Shown here piece after piece: positions 21,679 through 55,151 of a stretch of 64,000 nt of DNA. The stretch lies in NCBI RefSeq assembly GCF_036346595.1, contig NZ_CP107834.1:1922001-1986000 (forward strand), given 5' to 3'. How positions within the stretch are numbered: the first letter of the stretch is position 1; every line of letters starts with the position of its first letter. Origin of the DNA: Streptomyces sp. NBC_00525. Its GTDB lineage: Bacteria > Actinomycetota > Actinomycetes > Streptomycetales > Streptomycetaceae. Both the position numbers and the translations under genes were made by a program. Below the pieces are notes generated by a model that was not told the origin of the DNA, did no database searches, and saw only the letters and a list, made by a program, of their open reading frames with translations.

Positions 21679-24431
21679 GTACGCAGTGCCAGCGCCCCGC
21701 GTGCGAGGGCAGCTACGAGGACATGGGCGGCGGTGAGCTGTACTGCGACACCTGCGGTCTGGCGCCTGTCGTCTCTCCGAACGGGATGGTCAGTTCGCCG
21801 CCGACCGGGGTCGCGGTGGGCGGCCGGGGCAGCCGTGGGTCGAACAGCTCGTCGGCGCGCAGCGGTTCGCAGTCCTCGTCGCGGGCGTCCTCGCGCTCCT
21901 CGTCCCGGTCCTCGACGTCGCGGCGCTCGGTGTCGGGGCGGCTCTCGCGGTCGCTGTCCGGCGCGGCCACCGCGCATTCGGTCTCGGTGCGCTCCTCCGC
22001 CAGGTCGACCAACTCCTCTGGCCGCAACCGGCTGGGCGCGGGCCTGGTGCAGGTGCCGGACGTGCCGCGCCCCGATCCGCGTACGGCCGTCATGGAGAAC
22101 CCGGAGGTTCCCGAGCGCAAGCGGTTCTGCTCGCGGTCGGACTGCGGGGCTCCGGTGGGCCGGGCGCGGGGCGAGCGGCCTGGCCGCACCGAGGGGTTCT
22201 GCACCAAGTGCGGCCACCCGTACTCCTTCGTGCCCAAGCTCGAGGCGGGCGACGTGGTGCACGGCCAGTACGAGGTCGCGGGCTGTCTGGCGCACGGCGG
22301 GCTCGGCTGGGTCTACCTGGCGGTGGACCGGGCGGTGTCCGACCGGTGGGTGGTGCTCAAGGGCCTGCTGGACACGGGCGACCAGGACGCGATGGCGGCG
22401 GCGATATCGGAGCGGCGGTTCCTCGCCGAGATCGAGCACTCCAACATCGTGCGCATCTACAACTTCGTGGAGCACCTGGACCAGCGGACCGGTTCGCTCG
22501 ACGGCTACATCGTCATGGAGTACGTCGGCGGCAAGTCGCTCAAGGAGATCGCCAACGAGCGCCGCACCCCGGCCGGGAAGCGCGATCCGCTGCCGGTGGA
22601 GCAGGCGTGCGCGTTCGGCATCGAGGCGCTGGAGGCGCTGGGCCATCTGCACAGCCGCAACCTGCTGTACTGCGACTTCAAGGTGGACAACGCGATCCAG
22701 ACCGAGGACCAGCTGAAGCTCATCGACATGGGCGCGGTCCGCCGGATGGACGACGAGGAGTCGGCGATCTACGGCACCGTCGGCTACCAGGCCCCCGAGG
22801 TCGCGGAGCTGGGCCCGTCGGTCGCCTCCGACCTGTACACGGTGGCCCGGACGCTCGCCGTGCTGACCTTCGACTTCCAGGGGTACACGAACGTCTTCGT
22901 GGACTCGCTGCCGGACCCGGACAACATCGAGGTGTTCCGGACCTACGAGTCGTTCTACCGGCTCCTGGTGCGGGCGACCGACCCGGACCCGGCCCGCCGG
23001 TTCGCCTCGGCGGCGGAGATGGCGGAGCAGCTGACGGGTGTGCTGCGGGAGGTGGTGTCCCTGCAGAGCGGGCGTCCGCGTCCGGCGCTGTCCACGCTGT
23101 TCGGCGGGGAGTTGCGGGTCACCGACACGGAGCTGTTCGCGGACGGTGCGGGCGAGGTGTCGCGCCTGGGCGCCAGGGCCGCCGCGTCCGGCGGGCGCTT
23201 CGGCCGCCGGAAGGGCGGTACGGCCGCCGGGGCGCCGGCCGCGCCCGCCGCCGTGACCCCGCCCGGCGGGACGCCGGGGGCGCTGCCCGCCGGGCCCGCC
23301 CCGTCGCCCGCGGGCGCGGCGCCGGTGCCGTCGGCCGCCACCCACGTCCGTACGCCGGGTGGCGCGGGCACCGGCGCGGGCCCGCTGCCGTACGCGCCGG
23401 CGGCGAGTGTTCCGGCGCCGCGCAGCCCGCTCCCGGCCCCCTCCCCCGGCGCCGCGCCCGCGGTTGCGGGGGGCGGCGCGCCCCGGCTCGCCGGGCTCGA
23501 CGTACGCGGGACCTCGCTGGCGCTGCCCGTGCCGCGTGTCGACGCGAACGACCCCAACGCCGGTTTCCTGGCCGGGGTGATGGCGTCCGCGCCGGCCGAG
23601 CTGATCGCCGCGTTGCAGGCGGTGCCGGCCGCGTCGCTGGAGACCCGGCTGCGTGAGCTGCGGGCCCATCTGGAGATGGGCGACCTCGGTGCGGCGGCGA
23701 AGACCCTGGGCGAGCTGGAGGGACAGCACGCGGACGACTGGCGCGTCGTCTGGTACCGGGGCCTCACCTCGCTGGTGACCGGTGCCAACGAGAACGCGGC
23801 GCTGTCGTTCGACGCGGTGTACGACGCGTTCCCCGGCGAGCCCGCGCCGAAGCTGGCCCTGGGCATCTGCGCGGAGGTCCTGGGGCAGCTGGACAACGCC
23901 GCCGAGTACTACCGGCTGGTGTGGCTGACCGATCCCAGCTTCGTGAGCGCGGCGTTCGGCCTGGCCCGGGTGCAGATCGCGGCCGGTGACCGGAACGCGG
24001 CCGTCCGGACGCTGGAGTCGGTGCCGGAGGCGTCGATCCACTACACGGCGGCCCGGATCGCGGCCGTCCGGGCCCGGCTGCGCGAACGCGCCCCGGACGA
24101 ACCGCTGATGGCGGACCTGACGGCGGCGGCGGCCCAGGTGTCGGGGCTCACCGGGCTCGGACTCGACGCGGTCCGGCGGGAGCGGCTCGCGACCGAGGTT
24201 CTCGGCTCGGCGCTCGACTGGGTACTCTCCGGTAGCCCGTCCGGCCCGCAGCCCGCCGCGCAGGCGGGGCCGCGCCCGGCGACGCTGCTGGGCAGCGAGC
24301 TGGACGAGCGCGGTCTGCGTTTCGGTCTGGAGCGTGCGTACCGGATGCTCGCCCGGCTCGCCGAGCCCGGCGACGAGAGGATCGAACTGGTGGAACGGGC
24401 CAACCGCTTCCGCCCCCGAACGTGGGTGTGA
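21675..24431 (+). CDS. pknG: PknG-type serine/threonine protein kinase
   Basis: A soluble 918-aa kinase with the PknG layout. Residues 1-30 hold a zinc ribbon (CQRPACEG...YCDTCG). Residues about 57-120 are a Ser/Arg-rich disordered stretch. Next are a rubredoxin-like element (CSRSDCG...CTKCG), the kinase (about 193-460: LAHGGLGWVYLAVD, VVLKG, catalytic loop YCDFKVDN, LIDMGAV, YGTVGYQAPE), a Pro/Ala-rich linker and a TPR domain (about 650-915, ending RANRFRPRTWV as in mycobacterial PknG). PknG phosphorylates an FHA protein (GarA/OdhI) that controls 2-oxoglutarate use; an FHA gene lies three genes on. The first rubredoxin knuckle is CxxxxCG instead of CxxCG. Confidence 0.92.
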   Translation: MSTQCQRPACEGSYEDMGGGELYCDTCGLAPVVSPNGMVSSPPTGVAVGGRGSRGSNSSSARSGSQSSSRASSRSSSRSSTSRRSVSGRLSRSLSGAATAHSVSVRSSARSTNSSGRNRLGAGLVQVPDVPRPDPRTAVMENPEVPERKRFCSRSDCGAPVGRARGERPGRTEGFCTKCGHPYSFVPKLEAGDVVHGQYEVAGCLAHGGLGWVYLAVDRAVSDRWVVLKGLLDTGDQDAMAAAISERRFLAEIEHSNIVRIYNFVEHLDQRTGSLDGYIVMEYVGGKSLKEIANERRTPAGKRDPLPVEQACAFGIEALEALGHLHSRNLLYCDFKVDNAIQTEDQLKLIDMGAVRRMDDEESAIYGTVGYQAPEVAELGPSVASDLYTVARTLAVLTFDFQGYTNVFVDSLPDPDNIEVFRTYESFYRLLVRATDPDPARRFASAAEMAEQLTGVLREVVSLQSGRPRPALSTLFGGELRVTDTELFADGAGEVSRLGARAAASGGRFGRRKGGTAAGAPAAPAAVTPPGGTPGALPAGPAPSPAGAAPVPSAATHVRTPGGAGTGAGPLPYAPAASVPAPRSPLPAPSPGAAPAVAGGGAPRLAGLDVRGTSLALPVPRVDANDPNAGFLAGVMASAPAELIAALQAVPAASLETRLRELRAHLEMGDLGAAAKTLGELEGQHADDWRVVWYRGLTSLVTGANENAALSFDAVYDAFPGEPAPKLALGICAEVLGQLDNAAEYYRLVWLTDPSFVSAAFGLARVQIAAGDRNAAVRTLESVPEASIHYTAARIAAVRARLRERAPDEPLMADLTAAAAQVSGLTGLGLDAVRRERLATEVLGSALDWVLSGSPSGPQPAAQAGPRPATLLGSELDERGLRFGLERAYRMLARLAEPGDERIELVERANRFRPRTWV

Positions 24432-50747: not shown

Positions 50748-51143
50748 ATGACGGAGCAGCGGGGGGCCGGGGCGCGGCGGCGGGGGCAGGGGGAGCTGGA
50801 GGCCCAGGTGCTGGCCACGTTGCGTGCGGCGCCGGGGCCGGTGGTCGCGGGGTGGGTGCAGGAGCGGCTCGGGGGCGGTCTCGCGTACACGACGGTGGTG
50901 ACGATCCTGACCCGGCTGCATGCCAAGGGGGCGGTGGCGCGGGAGCGGTCGGGGCGGTCGTTCCAGTGGACGGCGGTCGCGGACGAGGCGGGGCTGGCCG
51001 CGTTGCGGATGCGGCGGGTGCTCGACTCCGAGGCCGACCGCGAGGCGGTGCTGGCGAGTTTCGTGAACACGCTGTCTCCGGGGGACGAGCGGCTGCTGCG
51101 CACGCTGCTGGAGACGGCGGAGCCCTCGGAGGAGGGAGACTAG
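50748..51143 (+). CDS. BlaI/MecI-family transcriptional repressor
   Basis: A 131-aa winged-helix repressor (about 15-85, with GGLAYTTVVTILTRLHAKGAV and RSFQWTAV) and a C-terminal helical dimerisation region (LLRTLLETAEP) typical of BlaI/MecI. Such repressors are inactivated by cleavage triggered by an M56 membrane peptidase, and the next gene encodes one four bases downstream. GGGAGG precedes the ATG. A target beyond its own operon is unknown; no beta-lactamase gene lies in the window. Confidence 0.9.
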   Translation: MTEQRGAGARRRGQGELEAQVLATLRAAPGPVVAGWVQERLGGGLAYTTVVTILTRLHAKGAVARERSGRSFQWTAVADEAGLAALRMRRVLDSEADREAVLASFVNTLSPGDERLLRTLLETAEPSEEGD

Positions 51144-51147
51144 GGCC

Positions 51148-52077
51148 ATGGGGGTCTTCGTCTTCCTGCCACTGGTACTGCCGCTGACGGCCTGGCCCGT
51201 GGCGCGGCTGGCCGAGCATCATCTGCACCCTCGGGCGGCGACCCGGCTGCTGAGCATGGTCGCGGCCGTGCTCGCGCTGTGCAGCACCCTGTGTCTCGGG
51301 CTGCTCATGGTGGTGGGCACCGCTCAGCTGCCCGGCAATCCGCTGCCCGACGGCTGGTCGGACCCGGAGGTGCGCGCCGCCGTGCCGCACGACGAGATCG
51401 CCGGCCGGATGGCGATCCCCGCCCTGGTCGCCGTGCTCGCCGCGTGTACGGGGACGGCGCTGCGGCACCGCCGGGTGCGGCGCCGGGCCGCGCGGGCCCT
51501 GGCCGGGCTGCCGGACACGTCCGTGGCGGTGCTGCCCGACGAGGCGGCGTACGCGTACGCCCTGCCGGGCAGGCGCGACCGGGTCGTCGTCAGCACGGGC
51601 ATGCTCGCCGGGCTCGCCCCGGCCGAGCGGCGGGCGATGTTCGCGCATGAGCGGGCCCATCTGGCCGGTCGTCACCACCGTTTCCTGCTGACCGTCCAGC
51701 TGGCCGCCCGCGCCAATCCCTTCCTGCGCCCGCTGCGTACGGCGGTGGCCTACTCCACCGAGCGGTGGGCGGACGAGGAGGCGGCGCAGGCCGTGGGCGA
51801 CCGGCGGACCGTGGCGCGGGCGGTGGGCAAGTCGGCGCTGATGGCGGGGGTTTCGCCCGCGCCCGGCCTGGCGCACTTCGCGGCCGCCGGGCCGGTGCCG
51901 CGGCGGGTTGCGGCGCTGCTCGGGCCCGCCCCCTCGCCCCGGACCTGGCCCCCGGTGTTCACCCCGGTCGGACTGGCCGCCTGGACGGCGACCGCCGGAA
52001 CGACCGTCTCGGCGCTGTCCTCCGCGAATGCGACCGTGACGCTGTTCTTCATCCTGCACGCCGCCACCCCCGTGTAG
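51148..52077 (+). CDS. M56 (BlaR1-like) membrane metallopeptidase
   Basis: A 309-aa membrane protease with hydrophobic segments at about 1-20, 33-57, 89-109 and 274-305. The zinc motif HERAH (167-171) and a downstream Glu in STERWADEEA complete the metallopeptidase site on the cytoplasmic side. Unlike staphylococcal BlaR1 it has no extracellular penicillin-sensor domain, so its trigger is unknown. It pairs with the BlaI-type repressor immediately upstream. Confidence 0.88.
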   Translation: MGVFVFLPLVLPLTAWPVARLAEHHLHPRAATRLLSMVAAVLALCSTLCLGLLMVVGTAQLPGNPLPDGWSDPEVRAAVPHDEIAGRMAIPALVAVLAACTGTALRHRRVRRRAARALAGLPDTSVAVLPDEAAYAYALPGRRDRVVVSTGMLAGLAPAERRAMFAHERAHLAGRHHRFLLTVQLAARANPFLRPLRTAVAYSTERWADEEAAQAVGDRRTVARAVGKSALMAGVSPAPGLAHFAAAGPVPRRVAALLGPAPSPRTWPPVFTPVGLAAWTATAGTTVSALSSANATVTLFFILHAATPV

Positions 52078-52133: not shown

Positions 52134-52589
52134 CTAGAGGTCGAACTCGTGGGGCGGGAGGTCGAGGGTGAAGCACGCCTCGCGCACGACGGCCCGTTCC
52201 GTGTCGTCGAAGTGGCCGTCGGCGCCGCCGATGACGATGCCGATCTGGATCACGGCGCGCGCCTCGGCCGGCTTCTTCTTCGCCTTGGCGATCTCCTGGA
52301 GCACGCCGACCTTGCCGAAGCCGAAGTCGGCCGTCAGCTTGTTCAGGTTCTCGTCGAACCGGCGCCGGAGGTCGTTCGCGTCGAAGTTCTGCAACACCTC
52401 GTTGGTGGCGATGAGCTGGGCCACGCGCTGCCGTTCGGAGGGGTCGATCGAGCCGTCCGCCGCGGCCACGAGGGCGCACATCGCCATGGAGGCGTCCCGG
52501 AAGGCACCGGACTTGAGGTCGTTCTTCTTCGCCAGCAGCTGCGTCTGCATCGTCGACGCGGACTCCTTGATGCGGTCCCACAGGGCCAT
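52134..52589 (-). CDS. TerB-family tellurite-resistance-type protein
   Basis: A 151-aa all-helical TerB protein. It starts MALWDRIKESASTMQTQLL, and two acidic helix-loop motifs, AADGSIDPSERQRV and GADGHFDDTERAVV, contain the conserved Asp/Glu residues that bind metal in this family. TerB proteins are cytoplasmic or membrane-associated and link to metal stress and phage resistance in ter systems; here no other ter gene is present. GGGAG precedes the ATG. A TCTACA-N4-TGTAGA palindrome lies 70 bases upstream and recurs in front of spo0M/ArsR and of a 72-aa gene. Confidence 0.92.
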   Translation of the reverse strand: MALWDRIKESASTMQTQLLAKKNDLKSGAFRDASMAMCALVAAADGSIDPSERQRVAQLIATNEVLQNFDANDLRRRFDENLNKLTADFGFGKVGVLQEIAKAKKKPAEARAVIQIGIVIGGADGHFDDTERAVVREACFTLDLPPHEFDL

Positions 52590-52658
52590 CCCGCACTCCC
52601 AACGCGCTTGGTGGGCCCGCCCGAGCCGGGGTGGGGTGGCGGCTCGGACGGACCCAAC

Positions 52659-52676
52659 TTCTACATTACTGTAGAA
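52659..52676. promoter_or_regulatory. Palindrome upstream of terB (site 1 of 3)
   Basis: TTCTACA-TTAC-TGTAGAA, a perfect 7-4-7 inverted repeat. The core TCTACA-N4-TGTAGA is identical in the three sites found between 52.6 and 54.6 kb. Likely the operator of the local ArsR-type regulator. Confidence 0.8.
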
Positions 52677-52724
52677 ACTACCAGTCCGGAGAGGCCACGC
52701 CCCGGCCGCGCGGACCGCCCGGTC

Positions 52725-53756
52725 TCACCCCTCGTCCTCCCTCTCCTCCTCTTCGTCACCCTCGAAGAAGTCGCCCACCTCGTCGACGACTTCGGCGGCC
52801 ACCACGGCGCCGACCACGCCGACGGCCAGGCCCGCCGCACCGGCGGCGACCGCCGTCCCCACTCCGGGGCCGGAGCGATGACCGTCACCGCCGTGGCCGT
52901 CATGCCCTCCGTAGCCGCCGTGGCCGTCATGGCCCCCGTGCCCGCCCTGCACGAACAGCGCGCCGTCCGCCTGCCCGTACGCGGCGCGGTGCTCGACGAG
53001 GCGTCGAATCCAGCCGTCGACCTCCGCGTTCCAGTCCGTCCCCGCGACCTCGTGGTGGCCGACGGTGTGGCGGACCAGGGCGTCGTGCCCCTCGGAGAGG
53101 AAGCCGTCGCGCTTGTCGGCCTCCAGGACCACCTCCAGACCGGTGGGCCCGGCCAGGAAGGTCACCTCGATCTCGTTGAGCTGGTGGGCGTACTGGGGCG
53201 CCAGGGACAGCTCGATCTCCTGGTAGAACGGCAGCTGTTGCCCCGTACCGCCGATGCGGCCGAGTTCCAGGTCGGCCGACCTGAAGCCGAAGCCGAGTTG
53301 CCCGAGCGCCTCCAGGACCGCTTCCTGAGCCGGCAGGGGGCGCACGGCGAGCGGGTCGAGGTCGCCCTTGTCCCTGGCGCCGGCCACCCCGAGTTCGGTG
53401 CGGACGCCGAGGACGATCCCCAGCTCCTGCCCGTACAGTTCCGTGATCGGCGTCTCCCACGGCAGCGTCAGCGCGAAGGGCACCGCGCGGTCCTCGCCCC
53501 CGGAGAGGCGGAAGCCGCCCGCGACGGCACACCGGTGGAAGGCGACGAAGCCTTCGGACTCTCCGTCGTCGTGCTCGGCCTCGACGCGGGCGACGAGTTC
53601 CAGGGTGATGTGCTCGATCGTGACGTCACCGTCGCCGCCCCGGAGGCGTACCTCTCCGGTGACGTCACCGCCGGGCGCGACCGCGCCCGCCTCCAGCACG
53701 GTGTCCACCGAGGGGCCCCCGATGCCGAGCGAGCCGAGCAGACGCTTGAACACCAT
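52725..53756 (-). CDS. spo0M: Spo0M-family sporulation-control protein
   Basis: A 343-aa protein. The first ~250 residues match Spo0M, an arrestin-like beta protein affecting sporulation control (MVFKRLLGSLGIGGPSVDTVL, LRGGDGDVTIEHITLEL, FALTLPWETPITELYGQ, LRTELGV-like strands). An unusual His/Gly/Asp-rich segment follows (about 270-293, with units such as GGHDGHGGYGGHDG). Then come a Gly/Ala/Val hydrophobic stretch (about 300-324) and an acidic tail (EGDEEEEREDEG). AAGGAG precedes the ATG. It is divergent from the ArsR-type gene, with a shared palindrome between them. Confidence 0.9.
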   Translation of the reverse strand: MVFKRLLGSLGIGGPSVDTVLEAGAVAPGGDVTGEVRLRGGDGDVTIEHITLELVARVEAEHDDGESEGFVAFHRCAVAGGFRLSGGEDRAVPFALTLPWETPITELYGQELGIVLGVRTELGVAGARDKGDLDPLAVRPLPAQEAVLEALGQLGFGFRSADLELGRIGGTGQQLPFYQEIELSLAPQYAHQLNEIEVTFLAGPTGLEVVLEADKRDGFLSEGHDALVRHTVGHHEVAGTDWNAEVDGWIRRLVEHRAAYGQADGALFVQGGHGGHDGHGGYGGHDGHGGDGHRSGPGVGTAVAAGAAGLAVGVVGAVVAAEVVDEVGDFFEGDEEEEREDEG

Positions 53757-53820
53757 CGGGCGTTCACTCCTTCATATGGCTTGTGCGGTACAGCACTTCG
53801 GCCGCCGCGACCAGCGACCG

Positions 53821-53836
53821 TCTACACTTGTGTAGA
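53821..53836. promoter_or_regulatory. Palindrome between spo0M and the ArsR-type gene (site 2 of 3)
   Basis: TCTACA-CTTG-TGTAGA, a perfect 6-4-6 inverted repeat ending five bases before the regulator ATG and 65 bases ahead of spo0M. Position fits autorepression and control of spo0M by the same protein. Confidence 0.85.
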
Positions 53837-53841
53837 AGCAT

Positions 53842-54231
53842 ATGAGGGGCGACGGCCGGCGGACGGGATACGAGCAGGTGGACACGACAGGAACCGGCGG
53901 CCTCGGCGACGCTCCGGGCGCGGGTACGGACACCGTCGCCAGGGTCTTCGCGGCCCTCGCTTCTCCCGCGCGTCTGCGCATCCTCCAGGTCCTCACCCAG
54001 GGGCCGAGCGATGTGACGCGTCTGGTGGAGCAGGTGGGCGGAGCCGCGTCCACGGTGAGCCAGCACCTGTTCACCCTGCGGCGGGCCGGGTTCGTCGATT
54101 CCCGCAGGGAGGGGCGTCGGCAGGTGTACTTCACCGAGGAGTCGCAGGCGCTCACCGAGGTCCGGCGGGCGGCCGAACGGCTGGCCGCGCGCCAGGGCGA
54201 CGCCACCGGCCGGGGAGCGGCCGGCGGCTGA
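53842..54231 (+). CDS. ArsR/SmtB-type winged-helix regulator
   Basis: A 129-aa regulator. The winged helix covers about 30-105, with ALASPARLRILQVL, then ASTVSQHLFTLRRAGFVDS (recognition helix) and a wing RREGRRQVYF. It has no Cys, and the ELCVCDL metal site of ArsR/SmtB is replaced by DVTRLVEQV, so it may sense something other than a thiol-bound metal. The ATG at 53842 has only GAAG upstream; a GTG 12 codons later is an alternative that leaves the palindrome further upstream. It is the best candidate for binding the three local TCTACA-N4-TGTAGA sites. Confidence 0.87.
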   Translation: MRGDGRRTGYEQVDTTGTGGLGDAPGAGTDTVARVFAALASPARLRILQVLTQGPSDVTRLVEQVGGAASTVSQHLFTLRRAGFVDSRREGRRQVYFTEESQALTEVRRAAERLAARQGDATGRGAAGG

Positions 54232-54246
54232 CACCGCCGGCCGGAG

Positions 54247-54266
54247 CGCCGCCCGGCCGGGCGGCG
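54247..54266. terminator. Bidirectional terminator between the ArsR-type gene and the 72-aa gene
   Basis: CGCCGCCCGG followed by its exact complement CCGGGCGGCG, a perfect 20-nt palindrome between convergent stops. Confidence 0.75.
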
Positions 54267-54274
54267 GGGTCGCG

Positions 54275-54493
54275 CTACTTGGCGGCGTCCAGCGCGGCCA
54301 GCGCCTGCGCCCACCGTACGTACTTCAGCGAGGCCAGGTCCGCCACGGTCCTGACGCCGAACGCCTCGTCCAGCAGCTCACCGTCCCGGTCGGACACGCC
54401 CTTCAGAGCGGCCACCGGCGCGGCCAGGATCTCCGACAGCTCCTTGTCCGCCCACGCCGAGTCCAGCACCTTGCCGAGATCGATCGAAGCCAT
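54275..54493 (-). CDS. 72-aa helical protein under the third palindrome, function unknown
   Basis: A small soluble protein. Its second half (LLDEAFGVRTVADLASLKYVRWAQALAAL) has the helix-hairpin-helix look of domains that end in a GxxTVADLA turn; the N-terminal helix starts with SIDLGKVLDSAWADKELSEIL. DNA or protein contact is possible but not shown. The ATG at 54493 follows GGAGGG by seven bases. The palindrome TCTACA-CTTC-TGTAGA lies 41 bases upstream, so it shares control with terB and spo0M. Confidence 0.8.
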   Translation of the reverse strand: MASIDLGKVLDSAWADKELSEILAAPVAALKGVSDRDGELLDEAFGVRTVADLASLKYVRWAQALAALDAAK

Positions 54494-54534
54494 GTCCAAC
54501 CCTCCGGGAACGAGTGGGTGCGACCGCCGCACCC

Positions 54535-54550
54535 TCTACACTTCTGTAGA
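54535..54550. promoter_or_regulatory. Palindrome upstream of the 72-aa gene (site 3 of 3)
   Basis: TCTACA-CTTC-TGTAGA, a perfect 6-4-6 inverted repeat, identical to the other two sites outside the four-base spacer. Confidence 0.8.
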
Positions 54551-54627
54551 AAATACGAGCCCGGATCACCCCTCAAGGGCTTGATCGGGTCTCCGCCAAA
54601 AACGGCTGAAAGTACCGCCTTCTGCGG

Positions 54628-54681
54628 CTTCAGGGCCTTCGGGGTCTTCGGGTCCTTCAGGGTCTTCAGGGCCTTCGGGAC
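54628..54681. repeat. Six tandem copies of a 9-bp unit
   Basis: Units CTTCAGGGC, CTTCGGGGT, CTTCGGGTC, CTTCAGGGT, CTTCAGGGC and CTTCGGGAC run head to tail (consensus CTTCRGGGY). They lie just downstream of the DUF1772 gene stop and upstream of the third palindrome. They are probably noncoding. Confidence 0.85.
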
Positions 54682-54701
54682 GAGAGGTACCGAAGGACCC
54701 G

Positions 54702-55151
54702 TCAGCCGGCCGCCACCGCCAGCAGCGCGAACGCCGCCAGGGACAGGACCGTGCGGATGCGGTGGAAGGTGTTCCAGCGGGCCTCGAACGCGGTGCGGGC
54801 CGCCGTGTCGTCGCCGCCCTCGGACTGTGCGAGGGCGTTGTTCAGCGGGATGTTGCCCGCGACCGTGATCAGGTGGGAGGCCACGGCGCAGACCAGTGCG
54901 GCGAGCAGCAGGGGCCAGGTGTCCTCGCCGGTCTCCGTGAAGACGGGGACGGCCGGGAAGGCGATCACGCCGAGGAAGAGGAGCAGGAAGACCGGGCCGG
55001 GGACCTTCTCGTTGAAGCGGCGCATCGCGGCCGTGAACCCGGCGTCGGGCAGGACCGCGAGGCCGGGCATCACCGCGATGAGGAAGGTCAGCAGGAATCC
55101 GGCGTAGAGGCCGGTCGTGAGCACGGCGAGGGTCAGGAACAGCGAGGCCAT
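54702..55151 (-). CDS. DUF1772 (anthrone-oxygenase-like) membrane protein
   Basis: A 149-aa protein with four hydrophobic segments (about 3-30, 49-70, 80-103 and 130-148) and the DUF1772 pattern: AMRRFNEKVPGP near the second helix, GNIPLNNALAQ and FEARWNTFHRIRTVLSLAAF. Family members are small four-helix membrane proteins, some related to anthrone oxygenases; the bacterial role is mostly unknown. The ATG at 55151 has only a weak ribosome site. A 6-6-6 inverted repeat lies 41 bases upstream. Confidence 0.88.
   Translation of the reverse strand: MASLFLTLAVLTTGLYAGFLLTFLIAVMPGLAVLPDAGFTAAMRRFNEKVPGPVFLLLFLGVIAFPAVPVFTETGEDTWPLLLAALVCAVASHLITVAGNIPLNNALAQSEGGDDTAARTAFEARWNTFHRIRTVLSLAAFALLAVAAG

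Follow-up and report, generated by a model that had tools for sequence, protein, structure and literature searches.

How are the terB and spo0M genes of Streptomyces sp. NBC_00525 regulated, and by which protein? The question arises from a 64,000-nucleotide stretch of this genome (contig NZ_CP107834.1, positions 1,922,001 to 1,986,000; hereafter the window, in whose own numbering coordinates are given), where three palindromes of the form TCTACA-N4-TGTAGA lie upstream of terB, between spo0M and the divergent gene of an ArsR-like regulator (arsR), and upstream of a gene encoding a protein of 72 amino acids (aa). An earlier note on the window regarded the ArsR-like protein as the natural binder of these sites and named a BlaI-type protein encoded at 50748 as an alternative. 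The sites, their genus-wide link to one BlaI subfamily and the genes adjoining them were computed here. Judged from sequence comparisons, the BlaI-type repressor (50748 to 51143) is the best candidate for the binder of the three sites, and we estimate a probability of about 0.78 that the palindromes are operators of this protein, encoded 1.5 to 3.4 kilobases (kb) away, through which it would control terB, spo0M and the 72-aa gene.

The three exact copies occupy positions 52660-52675, 53821-53836 and 54535-54550, packed within 1.9 kb, with the spacers TTAC, CTTG and CTTC, respectively. The first putative operator, TCTACATTACTGTAGA, lies 70 nucleotides (nt) upstream of the terB start. The second, TCTACACTTGTGTAGA, sits in the spo0M-arsR intergenic region, 64 nt upstream of spo0M; it ends 5 nt ahead of the first ATG of the divergent arsR and 41 nt ahead of an in-frame GTG at 53878, the likelier start of arsR. 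The third, TCTACACTTCTGTAGA, is located 41 nt upstream of the 72-aa gene. A pattern scan thus confirms three perfect repeats at promoter positions, with the first beginning at 52660 and not, as previously written, at 52659. When up to two mismatches were allowed, the window yielded one extra match, at 22456, and 100 shuffles averaged 0.13 matches. Across the 7.1-Mb genome the three window sites, and no others, were retrieved with up to one mismatch (reversed-pattern control, 1); at two mismatches the yield is near background, with 29 matches vs 23 for the control. The earlier claim that these repeats are a real regulon signal is thus borne out. A promoter and terminator scan of positions 52500-54700 gave no result.

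The exact site is present in 96 of 150 genomes of the genus, the own genome included, and in 95 of the 149 relatives, with the reversed control in 4. A phylum sample of 396 genomes contains it in 9 of 12 members of the same genus and in 10 of 384 others, among which the reversed control occurs in 9. Within the genus its distribution follows that of the BlaI subfamily found in the window. Members of this subfamily (E<1e-38; close BlaI) are present in 97 of the 149 relatives, the best 28 candidates per genome having been scored, so that absence is not absolute. The exact motif was found in 84 of these 97 genomes vs 11 of the 52 without close BlaI (Fisher p 2e-15). Furthermore, the 13 genomes that have close BlaI and no exact motif are seeming exceptions. 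In the blaI or terB regions fetched from them, all 13 carry a core with G or C by the spacer (reversed-core control, 0 of 13), which indicates that the true core comprises the ten bases TCTAC-N6-GTAGA. The consensus of 184 sites selected by this core is TTCTACAgNNcTGTAGAA, with weak A/T flanks.

The motif is also prominent at blaI itself. The 80 blaI loci analyzed were fetched from the 97 genomes with close BlaI, a few of which gave two. An unbiased search for 5-mer dyads in the 380-nt stretches at blaI placed TCTAC-N6-GTAGA first, in 46 of the 80 loci; random stretches taken from these loci averaged 6.35. The best match per blaI promoter was exact in 40 and one mismatch away in 12 (random stretches, 7% and 2%); in the other 28 it lay at four to six mismatches. 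The half-sites are the TACA and TGTA of BlaI/MecI/CopY operators, and the two-base spacer of those operators is not present: TACA-N4-TGTA occurs in 44 of the 80 promoters and TACA-N2-TGTA, the canonical BlaI/CopY form, was rejected as a candidate with 0 of 80.

Natural losses of BlaI bear on the same question. For terB, the sample consisted of all 107 listed homologues of at least 68% identity, terB-like entries under 64% being left out. Of the 92 genes from genomes with close BlaI, 83 have the core no more than 200 nt upstream (72 of the first 75 and 11 of a further 17), vs 2 of 15 genes from genomes without it (p 2e-9). Similarly, among all 26 genomes with a match to the 72-aa gene, that gene has a site with at most one mismatch in 20 of 21 with close BlaI vs none of 5 without. 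Physical linkage does not account for this pattern. The core is retained by 12 of 14 terB genes that share a contig with blaI at a distance of 47 kb to 6.9 Mb and by 23 of 25 on other contigs, so that hitch-hiking with a linked blaI is no explanation. Both traits change nine times on the tree built from the first 90 terB proteins. The dyad search at blaI promoters and these natural-loss tests both favor the BlaI-type protein at 50748 as the binder. In Streptomyces sp. AC1-42W (L162), which has an identical BlaI, all three sites are present.

The genes adjoining the sites in relatives form a short list. Sites within 320 nt of a gene start were tallied by Pfam family, with divergent promoters counted twice. 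The 101 exact sites in the 80 blaI loci adjoin blaI (41), terD (33), terB (29), acyltransferase (8), 72-aa (6), tatA (6), spo0M (5), LytR-CpsA-Psr (5) and ion channel (1) genes, and 6 sites adjoin none of these. Thus 95 of the 101 are near a gene of a listed family vs 19% of random positions, a comparison that is partly circular because the additional families were chosen from site neighbors in loci L004-L033, which partly belong to the same genomes; when the list is restricted to families present in the window, the figures are 80 of 101 and 9%. In a set of 80 named loci, which overlaps the first in species, an exact site was found in 37, and the list with arsR added accounts for 56 of 59 sites vs 12% of random positions. 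The regulon therefore looks broader in relatives than four genes, though the own genome has just three sites. LCP-family, TatA and acyltransferase genes recur among the further neighbors, with a PAP2 phosphatase at one site, and we infer that they point to the envelope. In Streptomyces coelicolor, sco2368 is, we presume, a TerD-domain gene. In the consulted part of PMC6767563 this gene is listed as a target of the envelope-stress factor sigma-E, and its protein rises with vancomycin.

Several observations weigh against BlaI as the binder. Counted genome-wide in 63 Streptomyces genomes, the ten-base core does not exceed its reversed control (194 vs 204 matches), and is for this reason informative at promoters only. 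Eleven of the 52 genomes without close BlaI still have the exact motif, and 28 of the 80 blaI promoters are without a site. The blaI promoter of the window has no site either (best match, five mismatches), nor has that of a close relative, G147 (L047, 95% BlaI identity); the regulatory loop would then be open in the present genome. Nine of the 92 terB genes with close BlaI have no core, the 17 second or more distant copies faring worse, and the two core-bearing terB genes without close BlaI belong to G136, which has no BlaI match at E 1e-10, and to G102, a fragmented assembly. The tree of the first 90 terB proteins offers five supported independent pairs, of which on average 2.7 change the same way, 0.0 the opposite way and 2.3 show no difference (median p 0.25), too few for significance. 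Finally, the own genome (G000:C1) has 17 TerD-domain genes above the Pfam cut-off, and none of the 17 has an exact or one-mismatch site, though terD is often the divergent partner of blaI in relatives.

The gene at 50748-51143 (plus strand) encodes a cysteine-free protein of 131 aa with a Penicillinase_R winged helix (Pfam PF03965, E 4e-23; 82 bits against a cut-off of 22.6). Immediately downstream, on the same strand, 51148-52077 encodes a BlaR1-like protein of 309 aa that matches Peptidase_M48 (PF01435, E 2e-14) and has the features of a membrane zinc metalloprotease, with HExxH at residue 167 and hydrophobic segments in the hydropathy profile. A Pfam scan of this protein found no domain besides M48, and hence no penicillin-binding sensor. 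BlaI-type dimers repress from TACA/TGTA palindromes, and the BlaI, MecI and CopY proteins of known function are repressors. We infer that a BlaI dimer would physically bind TCTACA-N4-TGTAGA at the promoters of terB, of spo0M and the divergent arsR, and of the 72-aa gene, and would repress rather than activate them. The adjacent M48 protease would most likely relieve this repression by inactivating BlaI on an envelope-type signal, and the Ter, Spo0M and 72-aa proteins would then be made together. A precedent exists in Staphylococcus aureus, where the membrane protease BlaR1 cleaves BlaI (PMC9834060, in part). The M48 protease has no beta-lactam sensor, as in Mycobacterium tuberculosis, so the signal is probably something other than a beta-lactam bound to the protease.

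It is unlikely, though not far-fetched, that BlaI binds these sites as an activator, or that the M48 protein is not its inducer. The M. tuberculosis homologue of the protease is likewise without a sensor domain (PMC9834060, in part), and in 11 of the 80 blaI loci of relatives no M48 gene directly follows blaI. The other 69 loci do have it there, which argues for a role of the protease, and the repressor function of the known BlaI, MecI and CopY proteins argues against activation.

A rather improbable alternative is that a third regulator, encoded elsewhere and inherited together with blaI, binds the motif and that blaI is merely one of its targets. The evidence for BlaI is co-occurrence throughout, and the siteless blaI of the window, together with the 2 of 15 terB genes that have a site without close BlaI, would fit such a regulator. 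However, this dyad ranks first at blaI promoters, as autoregulation by BlaI would predict, and it shares its TACA/TGTA half-sites with the operators of BlaI and MecI (PMC7253601, in part). The site of DasR, one of the known regulators in Streptomyces, is of another type (ggtctacacc) in the portion of PMC4398421 consulted.

Binding and autoregulation by the ArsR-like protein, with BlaI as a bystander, is very unlikely. This protein (53842-54231, plus strand) has the ArsR helix-turn-helix (HTH_5, E 3e-10; NF033788, 74 bits against a cut-off of 55), and with no cysteine and one histidine it has no cysteine metal site; metal sensing is less likely for it, though possible, since cysteine-free ArsR sensors exist. 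Its gene lies inside the cluster with site 2 directly at its start, and in the close relative G147, which has no spo0M between the sites, the site before arsR is kept. Nevertheless, an ortholog of more than 80% identity was found in just 1 of the 149 relatives. The motif does not follow the stronger ArsR homologues (E <= 4e-18; 34 of 50 vs 61 of 99, p 0.48). The gene families at which it is found in relatives, a check proposed in the earlier note, are those of terB, spo0M and the 72-aa gene, together with blaI and terD. Among 24 promoters of arsR homologues (the strongest account for 20, other loci for the remaining four) the core occurs in two, in G148 and G147, both divergent from terB. Such divergent pairs, present in 9 of the first 90 terB loci, have the site in 7 cases, yet all 7 are accompanied by close BlaI and the 2 without it have no site. 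In the 12.4-kb locus of S. roseolus (L233) the sites at terB and spo0M are kept and no arsR was found. Distribution, association, promoters, this locus and the absence of cysteine therefore do not support the ArsR-like protein as the natural binder. The gene is probably an accessory member of the regulon in a few species; in Streptomyces sp. R302 (L164) all three sites are present together with an arsR of 61% identity. Counting those not divergent, arsR homologues adjoin terB in 11 of the 90 loci, the own included (L268, L269, L272, L273, L284, L287, L291, L292, L309, L317 and L318), nine of them divergent within 600 nt.

That the repeats are not operators, and represent RNA hairpins, remnants of mobile repeats or chance, is hardly credible: they are palindromes in intergenic DNA, but the spacer varies while 10-12 bases stay constant, the half-site spacing is sharp (N4, no N2), and throughout the genus they keep their position upstream of orthologous genes but are mostly absent from genomes that lack close BlaI.

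Unlike arsR, the genes terB, spo0M and the 72-aa gene lie on the minus strand. terB (52134-52589) encodes 151 aa (Pfam TerB PF05099, E 1e-27), and spo0M (52725-53756) encodes 343 aa (Spo0M PF07070, E 9e-77). The 72-aa protein (54275-54493) has no Pfam or NCBIfam match at E 0.001, and among 120 listed of its 381 relatives the named ones are from Streptomyces, except for one from Actinospica acidiphila. Its structural model is helical and weak (mean pLDDT 71.7), and the best fold match, to Y-family DNA polymerases at E 0.07, was discarded as too weak for use. Its gene directly precedes spo0M in L026 and L033; in the window arsR lies in between. Adjoining it, 54702-55151 encodes a membrane protein of the anthrone oxygenase family with an NCBIfam match to ChrI under the cut-off of that model.

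Additional sites were seen in other settings. One further core match in the own genome (G000:C1:2723795, TCTACCGGTGGGTAGA) carries C and G at two positions where 87% of sites have A and T, and was put down to chance. A small protein of about 81 aa, which starts with MATR and contains VRWVYQPVE, is repeatedly encoded next to otherwise unassigned sites, in L065, L076, L099 and L031; the L031 copy has no Pfam match. One of the 11 motif-bearing genomes without close BlaI, G018, has an exact site just upstream of a more distant BlaI (L014, 48% identity), and the operator may be common to a wider BlaI subfamily. In a family sample the ten-base core occurs in other genera: most genomes of g249 have 4 to 10 sites vs 0 to 3 for the control, and named contigs with the core come from Kitasatospora sp. 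DSM 101779, Actinacidiphila glaucinigra and Wenjunlia vitaminophila. Genus g242 (G556, G572, G584, G596, G631 and G666) has pairs of core sites exactly 19 base pairs (bp) apart, a distance that would suit two adjacent BlaI dimers; apart from these six genomes, few close pairs suggestive of tandem operators were present in the loci examined.

On balance we lean, with some reserve, toward the view that across Streptomycetaceae a BlaI-M48 pair was diverted from a role in beta-lactam or copper responses and now acts as a switch dedicated to Ter, Spo0M and envelope genes, with half-sites 2 bp wider apart than in the published BlaI/MecI/CopY operator. Ter proteins are abundant in Streptomyces and to our knowledge have no agreed role. 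If the proposal is true, the pair would be the regulator of an actinobacterial Ter stress response, and an identified regulator, acting at a clean operator on a small set of genes, would make the signal of the Streptomyces Ter proteins testable. The system appears not to have been described, since neither the motif nor a link of BlaI to TerD in Streptomyces came up in the open-access literature searched.

The proposed BlaI switch resembles several known systems in part. Like other Ter stress neighborhoods, it groups TerB and TerD proteins with other genes; unlike them, it would have a dedicated BlaI-type regulator, of which no example for Ter genes was found in the same literature. The closest solved structure to this BlaI is 2g9w (E 3e-5), which we take to be M. 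tuberculosis BlaI, Rv1846c. The M. tuberculosis system also has a protease without a sensor domain (PMC9834060, in part), but the targets named for it are Rv1303, which is transcribed together with ATP-synthase genes, and Rv2151c, and the consulted parts of the paper concerned, on cell division (PMC12565901), do not mention Ter or Spo0M genes. CopR and CopY belong to the same repressor superfamily and have the operator RNYKACANNTGTMRNY, whereas their spacer is N2 and they carry a C-terminal Cys-X-Cys (PMC7253601, in part), in contrast to the cysteine-free BlaI described here. BlaI/MecI-BlaR1/MecR1 of Staphylococcus and Bacillus shares with the present system a winged-helix Penicillinase_R repressor beside a membrane zinc protease and palindromic TACA/TGTA half-sites. 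It differs in that the protease here is without a penicillin-binding sensor and the sites adjoin Ter, Spo0M and envelope genes; no beta-lactamase turned up among the neighbors identified, although none was specifically searched for. The half-sites are separated by N4 here and by N2 there, and, if the proposal is true, BlaI-family dimers can accept operators of differing half-site spacing.

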